A stretch of DNA of 64,000 nt, taken from Candidatus Phyllobacterium onerii (GTDB lineage Bacteria > Pseudomonadota > Alphaproteobacteria > Rhizobiales > Rhizobiaceae). The notes beneath the pieces were generated by a model. It had not been told where the DNA came from. It worked only from the letters and a program-made list of their open reading frames with translations, and searched no databases. How positions within the stretch are numbered: position 1 is the first letter of the stretch; each line of letters begins with the position of its first letter. Where the stretch lies: positions 186,001-250,000 of the forward strand of contig NZ_JAQMHX010000007.1 in the NCBI RefSeq assembly GCF_028331445.1, read 5' to 3'. Of the stretch, positions 15,604-26,153 are shown one piece after another. A program made the translations under genes and the position numbers.

Positions 15604-16638
15604 TCAGGCCGCGATCTTTTTCGGCTGAATGAGGCCGCGCGCAACCAGAAGCTCGGCGATCTGGATCGCATTAAGCGCCGCACCCTTGCGCAGGTTATCG
15701 GAAACGATCCAGATAGAGAGACCGTTTTCGACCGTGATATCTTCGCGGATACGTGAAATATAAGTCGCATCTTCGCCGGCGGCCTCGTAAGGCGTGATGT
15801 AGCCGCCATCTTCGTGGCGATCAACAACCAGGCATCCGGGCGCATCGCTCAGGATCTCGCGGGCTTCCTCGGCGCTCATGGGGCTTTCGAATTCGATATT
15901 TACCGCTTCCGAGTGACCGATGAATACCGGTACGCGGACGCAGGTCGCCGTGAGCTTGATCTTCGGATCGAGCATCTTCTTGGTCTCGGCGACCATCTTC
16001 CACTCTTCCTTGGTCGAGCCATCTTCCATGAAGACGTCGATGTGCGGAATGACATTGAAGGCAATGCGCTTGGTAAACTTCTTGGCTTCCACCGGATCGG
16101 CGACAAATACCGCGCGCGACTGCTGAAACAGTTCGTCCATGCCGTCCTTGCCGGCGCCCGACACGGATTGATAGGTCGCGATCACCAGGCGCTTGATCCT
16201 GGCCTTGTCATGCAACGGCTTCAGTGCGACCACGAGCTGCGCCGTCGAGCAGTTCGGATTGGCGATGATATTCTTCTTGGTGAAGCCGACAATTGCATCG
16301 GGATTAACTTCCGGGACGATCAGCGGTACGTTTGAATCGTAGCGCCACGCGGAAGAGTTATCGATGACAACGCAACCCTGCGCGCCGATCTTCGGTGACC
16401 ATTCCTTCGAGATATTACCGCCTGCAGACATCAGGCAGATGTCTGTATCGGAAAAATCGTAATTATCGAGGTTTTTGACCTTGAGCGTCCGGTCGCCAAA
16501 GGACACCTCGGTTCCCTGTGAACGGCGCGAGGCGAGCGCCACGACTTCGCTGACCGGAAAGCCACGCTCCTCCAGTATTGTAAGCATTTCGCGGCCCACA
16601 TTGCCTGTGGCACCAACAACCGCAACCTTGAAACTCAT
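15604..16638 (-). CDS. asd: aspartate-semialdehyde dehydrogenase
   Basis: 344 residues. The NADP loop is GATGNVGREM (9-18), the active-site Cys130 is in ANPNCSTAQ, and the base His lies in FIGHSEAV. It reduces aspartyl phosphate to aspartate semialdehyde, the branch point to lysine/diaminopimelate, threonine and methionine. AGGAGATATTACAG precedes the ATG at 16638. Upstream on the same strand is a 43-codon frame rich in Thr and Lys codons, then two hairpins, a layout that suggests leader control. Confidence 0.95.
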   Translation of the reverse strand: MSFKVAVVGATGNVGREMLTILEERGFPVSEVVALASRRSQGTEVSFGDRTLKVKNLDNYDFSDTDICLMSAGGNISKEWSPKIGAQGCVVIDNSSAWRYDSNVPLIVPEVNPDAIVGFTKKNIIANPNCSTAQLVVALKPLHDKARIKRLVIATYQSVSGAGKDGMDELFQQSRAVFVADPVEAKKFTKRIAFNVIPHIDVFMEDGSTKEEWKMVAETKKMLDPKIKLTATCVRVPVFIGHSEAVNIEFESPMSAEEAREILSDAPGCLVVDRHEDGGYITPYEAAGEDATYISRIREDITVENGLSIWIVSDNLRKGAALNAIQIAELLVARGLIQPKKIAA

Positions 16639-16671
16639 CTGTAATATCTCCTGTCCCTCTCTGCTGTATAA

Positions 16672-16720
16672 ACCCGCTGGCCACTGCGGGTCTTCTCCCC
16701 CGGGCCGGACCCGGGAGGGG
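16672..16720 (-). promoter_or_regulatory. tandem hairpins in the asd leader, candidate attenuator
   Basis: Hairpin B pairs 16720-16710 with 16704-16695 (CCCGGG core, 5-base loop). Hairpin A pairs ACCCGC with GCGGGT (16691-16686 with 16677-16672) and is followed on the minus strand by TTATA. The segment CCTGCT (16729-16724), just after the upstream small ORF, could instead pair with AGCGGG in the 3' arm of hairpin A, giving a competing fold. The U-run is short, so it may act on translation rather than termination. Inferred from base pairing only. Confidence 0.45.
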
Positions 16721-16739
16721 GCGAGCAGGCCAAGGGAAA

Positions 16740-16871
16740 TCAGACCGTTTTGGTGGTCGTTTTCGCAGTCTGTTTGGCCGAAATTTCAAGGGCAAGAGCG
16801 CGCGCGTCAATTTCTCCGGCAAGCTTGCCGGAACCGTTCGTCGAAAACAGCGCTGTTGATTCGTCACCCAT
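16740..16871 (-). CDS. 43-residue peptide with Thr/Lys-rich end, upstream of asd
   Basis: Starts at the ATG at 16871 with AAGGAG 8 bases upstream, and stops 101 bases before asd. The last dozen residues read AKQTAKTTTKTV: five Thr and three Lys codons. An in-frame ATG at 16943 would give 67 residues but lacks such a ribosome site. It could be a leader peptide sensing Thr/Lys-tRNA charging for asd, or simply a small conserved protein. At 43 residues it is long for an attenuator peptide. I recognise no family. Confidence 0.5.
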   Translation of the reverse strand: MGDESTALFSTNGSGKLAGEIDARALALEISAKQTAKTTTKTV

Positions 16872-17207
16872 GCGGGCATCTCCTTGTCCGCCTGTGCTTG
16901 TACGCGGTTTCGGTAAAGAGTCAATTGTCTCGGCAAATGACAAGAATATGTCATGTTACGCACAATTTTCGCCAATTGACGTAAGATGCGGGCTTTGCTT
17001 TGATCAATATATGGTGAACACTTCATCCGTATATCGGGTGCGTGACCTTTGGGGGGAAGAATTCCGGGGGACATTCACCGGCGCGTGGTCAACAGCGGCG
17101 CAATAGGCTCCGCCGATGACCAAGCGTAGTGTCGACAGTCGAGAACATGGCAAAGGGGTTACCGGTCATGTTCTTGGCTCAACTGCTGTTTTCTGGGAGG
17201 AAATGAG
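16872..17207. other. control region between the small ORF and the MHS transporter gene
   Basis: About 335 bases without a convincing gene. It holds nested inverted repeats at 16920-16980: outer arms GTCAATTG/CAATTGAC, inner arms ATGACA/TGTCAT around AGAATA. A second inverted repeat, AGAACATG/CATGTTCT (17142-17149 and 17167-17174), lies in the transporter leader. The divergent promoters of the asd leader and the transporter should lie here. Confidence 0.5.
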
Positions 17208-19094
17208 ATGGCAACCACTTCTGTGGCCGACACTTCTAGTCGGGGTATGACGAGAGAGGAAAAGAAGGTTATCTTCGCTTCTTCGCTCGGAACGGTTTTT
17301 GAATGGTACGATTTTTACCTTTATGGCTCTCTGGCCGCTTTTATCGGCGCAGCCTTTTTCAGCGAGTATCCGGAAGCCACACGCAACATCTTTGCGCTGC
17401 TTGCCTTCGCGGCGGGCTTCCTGGTTAGACCTTTTGGTGCACTGGTCTTTGGCCGTATCGGCGATCTGGTTGGCCGCAAATATACATTCCTCGTCACCAT
17501 CATGATCATGGGCCTGTCGACCTTCCTTGTAGGTATTCTTCCAGGTTCGGGAAGCTGGGGCATCGCCGCGCCGATTATCCTGATCGCCCTGCGCATGCTG
17601 CAGGGCCTTGCGCTCGGCGGCGAATATGGCGGTGCCGCGACGTATGTCGCCGAACACGCGCCCGACAACAGGCGGGGCTATTACACGTCCTGGATCCAGA
17701 CCACGGCAACGCTTGGCCTTTTCCTTTCCCTGATCGTTATTCTGGTCATCCAGAACTGGCTCGGTAAGGACGCATTTGCTGCTTGGGGCTGGCGTATTCC
17801 GTTCATCCTTTCCTTCGTTCTTCTAGGGATTTCGGTGTGGATTCGACTGTCCTTGAGTGAGTCACCCGCCTTCCAGCGCATGAAGGACGAAGGCAAAGGT
17901 TCAAAGGCTCCACTATCCGAGGCTTTCGGTCAGTGGAAGAATGCCAAGATTGCGCTCCTGGCCCTATTTGGCCTTACCGCCGGTCAAGCCGTTGTATGGT
18001 ACACAGGACAGTTCTACGCGCTGTTCTTCCTGCAGAACGTGCTGAAGGTCGACGGGCAGGCGGTTAACATCATGATCGCCATCGCCCTTCTGCTTGGCAC
18101 CGGCTTCTTCGTGTTCTTCGGCTGGCTGTCGGACAAGATTGGCCGCAAGCCGATCATCATGGCTGGATTGGCGCTTGCTATCCTCACCTACTTCCCGCTG
18201 TTCAAGGCGCTGACCTGGGCGGCAAATCCCGCACTTGCCGCTGCACAGCAGAACGTTCGTGCGACCGTGACCGCCGCGCCTGGCGATTGCAAGTTCCAGT
18301 TCAACCCTACTGGCACCGCAAAGTTCACCACTTCCTGCGATATCGCGACATCGTTCCTCACCCGGAACTCGGTGCCATACGATGTCGTGGCAACCGCTGC
18401 ACCTGGTACAGCGGCCACGGTGAAGATCGGTGAGGAGACAGTGGAGTCTTACGACGCTGTCGCAGCCGGGGCTGATGCAAAGGCCAAGGAAACCGCTTTC
18501 GCCAAGAGCGTGAACATCGCACTCCAGGACGGCGGCTATCCCCTCGTCCGCGACCCGGTGAAGGTCGTCGACTCAAAGCTGGATGCTCTCGTCGCAGCCA
18601 ATCCGAAGCTAGCGCTCGATGCGGCTGCTATCCGCGCTGGCGCAAAGACCACGGTTCCGGTCGATCAGGCTATCAAGGATAAGCTGATCACCGCGGAAGA
18701 GGCGGCTGGAGCCACTGAAGTTGCGGTGTACACGGTTCCTGGCGCTGGTGCGTTCAAGATGGTGGCTGATCCGGCTGCCGTCAATTGGACCAAGGTCATC
18801 GCGATCCTCTTCGTGCTCGTGATCTATGTGACGATGGTCTACGGCCCGATCGCAGCGATCCTTGTCGAGATGTTCCCGACGCGCATCCGTTATACGGGCA
18901 TGTCCTTGCCCTACCATATCGGTAACGGCTGGTTTGGCGGGTTGCTTCCCGCGACCGTCTTCGCAATGAGCGCATTCAAAGGCGATATCTACTATGGCCT
19001 CTGGTACCCGATCATTGTTGCGGCAATGACCCTTATTATCGGGCTCTTGTTCGTACGTGAAACGAAAGGCACCGATCTTCACGACGTGAAGTAA
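17208..19094 (+). CDS. MHS-family MFS transporter with large inserted domain
   Basis: 628 residues. The N-terminal half has the metabolite:H+ symporter (ProP/ShiA-type) signatures FEWYDFYLYG (about 32-41), GRIGDLVGRK and LRMLQGLALGGEYGG. About 185 residues (roughly 340-524), polar and Ala/Thr/Val-rich with two cysteines, are inserted late in the second half, before the final membrane segments. Ordinary MHS proteins are about 430-500 residues. Substrates of the family include proline/betaine, alpha-ketoglutarate and citrate; this one is unassigned. GGGAGGAAATGAG precedes the ATG. Confidence 0.88.
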   Translation: MATTSVADTSSRGMTREEKKVIFASSLGTVFEWYDFYLYGSLAAFIGAAFFSEYPEATRNIFALLAFAAGFLVRPFGALVFGRIGDLVGRKYTFLVTIMIMGLSTFLVGILPGSGSWGIAAPIILIALRMLQGLALGGEYGGAATYVAEHAPDNRRGYYTSWIQTTATLGLFLSLIVILVIQNWLGKDAFAAWGWRIPFILSFVLLGISVWIRLSLSESPAFQRMKDEGKGSKAPLSEAFGQWKNAKIALLALFGLTAGQAVVWYTGQFYALFFLQNVLKVDGQAVNIMIAIALLLGTGFFVFFGWLSDKIGRKPIIMAGLALAILTYFPLFKALTWAANPALAAAQQNVRATVTAAPGDCKFQFNPTGTAKFTTSCDIATSFLTRNSVPYDVVATAAPGTAATVKIGEETVESYDAVAAGADAKAKETAFAKSVNIALQDGGYPLVRDPVKVVDSKLDALVAANPKLALDAAAIRAGAKTTVPVDQAIKDKLITAEEAAGATEVAVYTVPGAGAFKMVADPAAVNWTKVIAILFVLVIYVTMVYGPIAAILVEMFPTRIRYTGMSLPYHIGNGWFGGLLPATVFAMSAFKGDIYYGLWYPIIVAAMTLIIGLLFVRETKGTDLHDVK

Positions 19095-26078: not shown

Positions 26079-26153
26079 GCGGGAGTAGCTCAGGGGTAGA
26101 GCACAACCTTGCCAAGGTTGGGGTCGAGGGTTCGAATCCCTTCTCCCGCTCCA
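26079..26153 (+). tRNA. tRNA-Gly (anticodon GCC)
   Basis: A 75-base cloverleaf including the encoded CCA end. The acceptor arms are GCGGGAG and CTCCCGC, the anticodon stem CAACC/GGTTG encloses loop TTGCCAA with anticodon GCC, and the T-loop is GGTTCGAATCC. It reads the glycine codons GGC and GGT. Confidence 0.97.

Follow-up and report, generated by a model that had tools for sequence, protein, structure and literature searches.

The asd gene lies on the minus strand of the window (the whole 64,000-nucleotide stretch of DNA that was analysed) and encodes an aspartate-semialdehyde dehydrogenase that is 99% identical, over the best segment, to the Asd of Phyllobacterium trifolii, which makes the organism probably a member of Phyllobacterium or a near relative. 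The product of the enzyme is the shared precursor of Thr, Lys, Met, Ile and DAP, a building block of the cell wall, and for this reason control of asd matters centrally for how rhizobia and their plant- and animal-dwelling relatives grow. Upstream of the gene we find a short reading frame and a series of RNA segments, which are listed here from promoter to gene together with the evidence for each.

16897-16924, minus strand: probable promoter, with a -35 box TTGACT (16924-16919) and a -10-like TACAAG (16902-16897); sequence
16880-16885, minus strand: Shine-Dalgarno AAGGAG of the leader, 8 nt 5′ of its ATG; sequence
16740-16871, minus strand: leader peptide frame, 43 codons, C-terminal AKQTAKTTTKTV followed by the stop; sequence and conservation
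16743-16758, minus strand: S1, a small stem GACC / GGUC within the control codons; covariation
16727-16739, minus strand: segment b, pyrimidine-rich, immediately 3′ of the stop; pairing tests and composition
16715-16720, minus strand: segment c, the loop of the b:c′ helix, with e as its partner; pairing tests
16693-16714, minus strand: segment c′ (broad), which pairs with b and includes the 3′ arm of P2; pairing tests
16697-16717, minus strand: P2, the first hairpin, exclusive with b:c′; covariation
16670-16693, minus strand: P3, the second hairpin, whose sequence varies by clade; fold and alignment A1
16655-16659, minus strand: segment e, core GAGGG in AGAGAGGG, which pairs with c, just 5′ of the asd Shine-Dalgarno; pairing tests
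16648-16652, minus strand: asd Shine-Dalgarno AGGAG; sequence
15604-16638, minus strand: asd, aspartate-semialdehyde dehydrogenase, 344 aa; Pfam PF01118 (Semialdhyde_dh) and PF02774 (Semialdhyde_dhC)

The full leader peptide, MGDESTALFSTNGSGKLAGEIDARALALEISAKQTAKTTTKTV (43 aa), runs from the ATG at 16871 to the TGA ending at 16740 and closes with the codons AAA ACG ACC ACC AAA ACG GTC TGA (KTTTKTV and stop), the peptide end being AKTTTKTV. An earlier note on this DNA had described a 43-codon frame with a good ribosome site and five Thr and three Lys codons at its end, followed by two GC-rich hairpins and asd. All of this is borne out: the five Thr and three Lys fall within the last 12 residues, and the 101 nt between the leader frame and the asd start (16638) contain the two hairpins, at 16717-16697 and 16693-16670, and then AGGAG. 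In the closest relative (L002) a 1-base insertion is found just 5′ of the ATG and the frame is still open, suggesting that the ATG at 16871 fits as the start better than an upstream TTG. The KTTTKT codon pattern has a single match in the 6.0 Mb assembly, which is the asd leader. We also considered a coordinated leader ahead of hom and rejected it, because hom is only 72 nt from its upstream frame in this genome, a gap too short for such a leader.

Conservation of the Thr/Lys tail ahead of asd

A Thr/Lys-rich frame, defined by at least five Thr or Lys within an 8-residue window of the frame's tail, precedes asd in 52 of the 89 genomes sampled from the order Rhizobiales, spread over 27 of its 49 families sampled, and in 5 of 60 genomes from the rest of the class. 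The order sample took one to four genomes per family from 146 with an Asd match among 150 searched, and the class sample took one genome per family, mostly the better Asd matches, from 114 with a match among 133 searched. That is 57 of 149 genomes, compared with 0 of 149 on the reversed upstream strand, where the top score was 4. No leader was found in 22 of the 49 order families sampled, nor upstream of asd in a Bradyrhizobium locus (L078). Among the best 80 of 588 asd loci, the top 57 of the list (L002-L058) carry without exception a frame whose last 12 residues include six or more Thr or Lys and whose end lies 77-162 nt 5′ of asd; the remaining 23 are mixed. The leader keeps its place ahead of asd throughout the loci examined.

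The leader peptides range from about 10 to more than 40 residues, with conservation confined to the tail, and they are otherwise divergent (MRTMIKKTTTI, MTGTAKTKTR, ...TTKTTKTT and ...AKTTTTTTL among them). As the peptides differ freely, the conserved property is codon content and not a protein. The length of the window's peptide, which had been counted as a weak point, is accordingly no longer a concern. In 38 distinct leaders, Thr and Lys account for 42% and 16% of the last 14 residues versus 8.6% and 3.4% of the body, an enrichment that is partly by construction since leaders were selected on these residues. Minor-allele counts at positions 1, 2 and 3 of the control codons are 8, 8 and 97 in 53 aligned leaders, which are partly related, so that the changes are not independent events.

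Of 114 leaders, 110 carry a TTGAC box 15-230 nt 5′ of the stop codon of the frame; on the opposite strand the figure is 14 of 114. The underlying set of 120 leaders comprises the window, 62 of the 80 listed loci and the finds of the two censuses (52 in the order, 5 in the rest of the class); the promoter count omits those five and one leader whose upstream sequence is too short. Left out of the set were L002 (a near copy of the window), L070 (a spurious frame) and loci scoring below 6, and L059, L061 and L062 were added by hand despite the cut-off. The 120 leaders are non-independent, with L040/L050 and L083/L084 identical after the stop and L077 and L146 apparently on the same contig. A background scan of 499 small frames in 81 sequences gave 19 hits with a Thr/Lys tail, one of them off the asd leader position; this control is rough, because much intergenic sequence was masked, the window's own frame among it.

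In five Bartonella loci (L063, L065, L068, L070 and L074), inspected by eye, the Thr/Lys codons are apparently lost and b and c seem to be kept, along with a complement to b in c′ and a pair resembling CCCUCUC/GAGAGGG. Upstream of asd in Bartonella, the RNA pairing may therefore persist after loss of the peptide.

Pairing alternatives between the leader stop and asd

Alignment A1 contains 53 rows, 52 of them distinct. Within the control codons, S1 is paired in 98.6% of cells and double-changed in 32, levels that none of 500 shuffles reaches, with the third bases of Thr and Val codons changing together (G-C to C-G; C-G to G-C or A-U). Shifting the partner sharply reduces the support for S1, and two of five measures, namely how many pairs vary and how many pair types occur, are not above shuffles (490/500 and 196/500). 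P2 is paired in 95.9% of cells and its covariation score is likewise reached in 0 of 500 shuffles. Alignment of asd upstream regions had been suggested as a check on the attenuator idea; in A1, both S1 and P2 covary. A further hairpin, within the frame and 5′ of the control codons, had been seen by eye in several genera; it was rejected as a conserved element after testing against mononucleotide shuffles (mean z -0.2 over 34 representatives, with 2 of 34, or 5.9%, below -1.64). At the asd leader Rfam has no gathering match, and a relaxed threshold returns three unrelated families (E 0.8 to 3.9).

Pairing between b, c, c′ and e was tested in fixed windows by comparing each genome's own partner with partners swapped between genomes, the reversed partner serving as a control for composition. 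Representatives were reduced from 45 to 38 (<70% ungapped identity) and then to 32 (gapped-identity filter). For b:c′, own partners pair better than swapped ones (p = 0.0017, reversed p = 0.27, difference p = 0.025 for n = 38; p = 0.0076, 0.35 and 0.044 for n = 32), and the same holds for c:e (p = 0.0001, 0.086 and 0.025 for n = 38; p = 0.0005, 0.15 and 0.027 for n = 32). Across windows and filters the corrected p values are 0.025, 0.027 and 0.044 for b:c′ and 0.025, 0.027, 0.034 and 0.088 for c:e, a moderate significance obtained with windows chosen after sequence inspection. The uncorrected values are to be read with care as base composition alone inflates them: a control window pair (b versus the next 20 nt) gave an uncorrected p of 0.0027 and a corrected p of 0.44, and reversed e gave p values of 0.0006 to 0.0037 in the same test round. 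A first test had used automatic hairpin detection and was weak (mean z -0.62 for b:c′ and -0.90 for c:e); because the detection picked the wrong hairpin in many sequences, it was replaced by the fixed windows and partner swapping.

The loop of the b:c′ helix is usually 5-12 nt long, typically CUCUCC-like, and binds the purine tract e of the same species, with a c:e energy of -8 kcal/mol or better in 33 of 38 representatives. The c:e pair types vary at every position, the pairs being those chosen by the folding program. In A1, a nine-pair b:c′ helix is paired in 93.3% of cells, mostly via C/U and G/A exchanges, with one of the nine pairs mismatched in 29 of 52 rows. Only 2 cells are double-changed, compared with 17 when the partner is slid by +2 columns, indicating a conserved helix with little covariation. 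As b:c′ and c:e cross, they would jointly form an H-type pseudoknot. The b:c′ helix and P2 are mutually exclusive, and since P2 is a stable local hairpin, b:c′ has to compete with it. By a rough estimate (summed duplex terms and a flat penalty), the energies of the pseudoknot and hairpin states are no more than about 10 kcal/mol apart, with either sign, in 34 leaders. These 34, and the 35 used for the Shine-Dalgarno overlap below, are what is left of the 38 representatives after weak, short-loop and overlapping cases were dropped.

The alternative fold supported by comparison is not the one that the earlier note had proposed, in which CCTGCT, 3′ of the stop codon, would have the second hairpin's 3′ arm as its partner. 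In the folded window, CCTGCT pairs with AGCAG just past P3 as part of a b:e pairing, and this minimum-free-energy solution found no support in the comparison (own versus swapped p = 0.50 for 38 representatives and 0.41 for 32). With moderate significance, the ~18 nt that directly follow the stop are instead predicted to pair with the first hairpin's 3′ arm. The two exclusive states would then be P2 and b:c′.

A candidate leader-peptide attenuator and its possible outputs

Comparison between genomes shows, ahead of asd, a promoter box and a short frame whose Thr/Lys tail is conserved, followed by an RNA with mutually exclusive predicted pairings. The core of the earlier proposal, a candidate Thr/Lys attenuator of asd, is strongly supported by the order-wide conservation of these elements. 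We consider it likely that the locus carries a leader-peptide attenuator in which the position of the ribosome would select either P2 or the pseudoknot, and this predicted regulation is well supported by the census, the third-position bias and the wobble covariation of S1. With charged Thr- and Lys-tRNA available, translation would run on to the stop codon, where the ribosome would cover b and leave c′ free for the P2 hairpin. A ribosome covers up to 12 nt past the stop codon, according to a passage of PMC4833913, so that most of b would be hidden. Under Thr or Lys shortage, a ribosome stalled earlier on the control codons would leave all or most of b free and b:c′ would form, with loop c then pairing with e just 5′ of the asd ribosome site to give the H-type pseudoknot. 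We take the pseudoknot as the 'on' state, as asd is required for Thr and Lys synthesis. Such a leader, present in many nitrogen-fixers and related bacteria, would very probably let the cell match asd to its supply of threonine and lysine by way of an unusual RNA fold.

Tentatively, we suggest that the attenuator may operate across the order by the choice between hairpin and H-type pseudoknot, without recourse to a U-run terminator or to Shine-Dalgarno occlusion, and through an undescribed readout such as Rho, mRNA decay or an effect of the pseudoknot on initiation. This has to be weighed against two more familiar outputs. In a translational attenuator, one fold would hide the asd Shine-Dalgarno and the other expose it, which we regard as rather doubtful. 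While e is indeed near the asd ribosome site (its paired part ends a median of 20 nt 5′ of the AUG), it overlaps the Shine-Dalgarno in only 3 of 35 representatives (L045, L103 and L139), the 32 others including 5 where no Shine-Dalgarno was recognised; in the window, c:e pairs without overlap. When 66 leaders were folded in the non-pseudoknot mode, the predicted accessibility of the ribosome site did not switch, nor did it change significantly once the pseudoknot state was modelled (Wilcoxon p = 0.22 and 0.29). Shine-Dalgarno occlusion is hence unsupported.

The other familiar output is that of a classical transcription attenuator, with the second hairpin (or P2) acting as an intrinsic terminator and a stalled ribosome giving rise to an antiterminator. 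Such a mechanism would account for the 15 leaders of the Mesorhizobium/Aminobacter type in which the hairpin is followed by UUUUCUCC, and for L209 and L215, two of the five leaders outside the order, which have GC-rich hairpins with U-rich tails. Yet a hairpin with a U-rich tail was found in just 22 of 120 leaders, these 15 included, so that most of the order probably does not use a classical terminator as its output, and the reading as a whole is unlikely. The window is not among the 22, and a simple scan of 16500-17300 on both strands found no terminator-like site. The Rhizobium and Sinorhizobium leaders of A1 are C-rich, not U-rich, 3′ of the hairpins; one of them, L057, came up in the U-tail count through a U-run inside its second hairpin. 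The scan of the window agrees with the short U-run mentioned in the earlier note, which is no local flaw given how few leaders have a U-tailed hairpin at all. As for L209 and L215, where the hairpin stands between a Thr/Lys leader and asd, these may be classical terminator-type attenuators of asd.

With U-run terminators scarce and the Shine-Dalgarno free, Rho-dependent termination or mRNA decay is favoured as the readout in the order. Rho prefers C-rich sequence nearly free of A, and the first 18 nt after the stop are 49% C, 26% U, 5% A and 20% G (38 representatives). Because segment b is C-rich and nearly A-free, Rho-dependent termination is our leading guess, with translation or decay close behind.

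It is highly improbable that the frame instead encodes a working small protein or a trans-acting peptide, comparable to peTrpL of S. meliloti, with an incidental link to asd. There is some precedent in the sources, as the tagged S. meliloti peptide SEP5 was detected in the soluble fraction in the account given in PMC10117765, and a trans role is claimed for peTrpL in PMC7298713. Against it, the peptide body diverges freely and varies widely in length while the tail keeps its Thr and Lys, the position upstream of asd does not change among the loci examined, and no match was found in Pfam for the window's peptide or in NCBIfam for four leader peptides. Finally, chance occurrence of Thr/Lys codons and GC hairpins in a GC-rich intergenic region can practically be set aside: the window fold by itself is just mildly unusual (z -1.65, with 6 of 200 shuffles equally good), but the census with its reversed-strand control contradicts chance, as do the third-position bias and the wobble covariation.

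Relation to known leader peptides

In the enterobacterial thr operon, a Thr-rich leader peptide controls aspartate-family genes (thrABC) by ribosome stalling on Thr/Ile codons and an intrinsic terminator. The asd leader is similar in linking a Thr-rich peptide to aspartate-family genes, and it differs in that the Rfam families do not match it. We did not find its order-wide conservation and RNA architecture in the literature searched; asd leaders of this group might be listed in one of the main comparative surveys of attenuators, Lopatovskaya et al. 2010 or Vitreschak et al. 2004. The word 'asd' is absent from the main texts of Corbino et al. 2005 on alphaproteobacterial RNA motifs (PMC1273637) and of Naville and Gautheret 2010 (PMC2965389).

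The leader idea itself is already in print for one genus. In the passages on SEP5 of S. meliloti, Hadjeras et al. 2023 (PMC10117765) show its translation by Ribo-seq and tagged Western blot, call it 'possibly a leader peptide' conserved only in Sinorhizobium, and describe a frame, located in the 5′-UTR of an "aspartate dehydrogenase" gene, that has six Thr and three Lys codons toward its 3′ end. The Sinorhizobium leaders upstream of asd (L044 and L053) end in SKTTAKTTTKTV, with six Thr and three Lys as in SEP5, and we infer that SEP5 is probably the same element and its downstream gene asd. The window's peptide, with five Thr and three Lys among the final 12 residues, would then be a relative. 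Whereas those passages report SEP5 as Sinorhizobium-only and give no RNA architecture, the present analysis describes the leader in much of the order together with its RNA folds, which are new as far as we found. For the leader idea, SEP5 is a precedent to set beside the earlier statement that no such control of asd was known in Rhizobiales.

Among the papers compared, the nearest architecture is the LEU element of leuA in Actinobacteria, which Seliverstov et al. 2005 (PMC1262725) describe, in the part concerned, as a leader peptide with a conserved pseudoknot and an alternative hairpin, with other attenuator elements missing and the mode of regulation unknown. Both systems have a leader peptide with codons for a pathway product, and the pairing tests on the asd leader are consistent with a pseudoknot that, as in the LEU element, would exclude a hairpin. 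The LEU element differs in amino acid (leucine), gene (leuA) and phylum, and it has a base stem linking the codon run to the Shine-Dalgarno; in the asd leader the control codons, tested for a local stem, fold on themselves (S1), and e lies mostly 5′ of the Shine-Dalgarno. The same part of that paper presents conserved leader peptides of Mycobacterium cys operons without an obvious terminator, for which its authors raise Rho-dependent termination; these concern cysteine and are described there with no pseudoknot. The trpL attenuator of S. meliloti offers leader-peptide attenuation within the same order, for a different amino acid and gene, as far as the relevant passages go (PMC10117765; PMC7298713).

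The asd leader accounts for a translated small frame earlier called Sinorhizobium-specific and would bring a pseudoknot-type architecture to leader-peptide control, the sole parallel found in the papers compared being the actinobacterial LEU element. If its readout were Rho-dependent or post-transcriptional, it would widen the known leader-peptide repertoire in Alphaproteobacteria.

Elsewhere in the window, a 628-aa MFS transporter is encoded divergently from asd on the plus strand (17208-19094); its Pfam matches end near residue 340 and are followed by a long Ala/Val-rich stretch and a final membrane-like part. Rfam places a tRNA gene at 26079-26150 on the plus strand, and a ybhL leader (RF00520) at 760-820 on the minus strand scores 50.1 versus a gathering score of 50.
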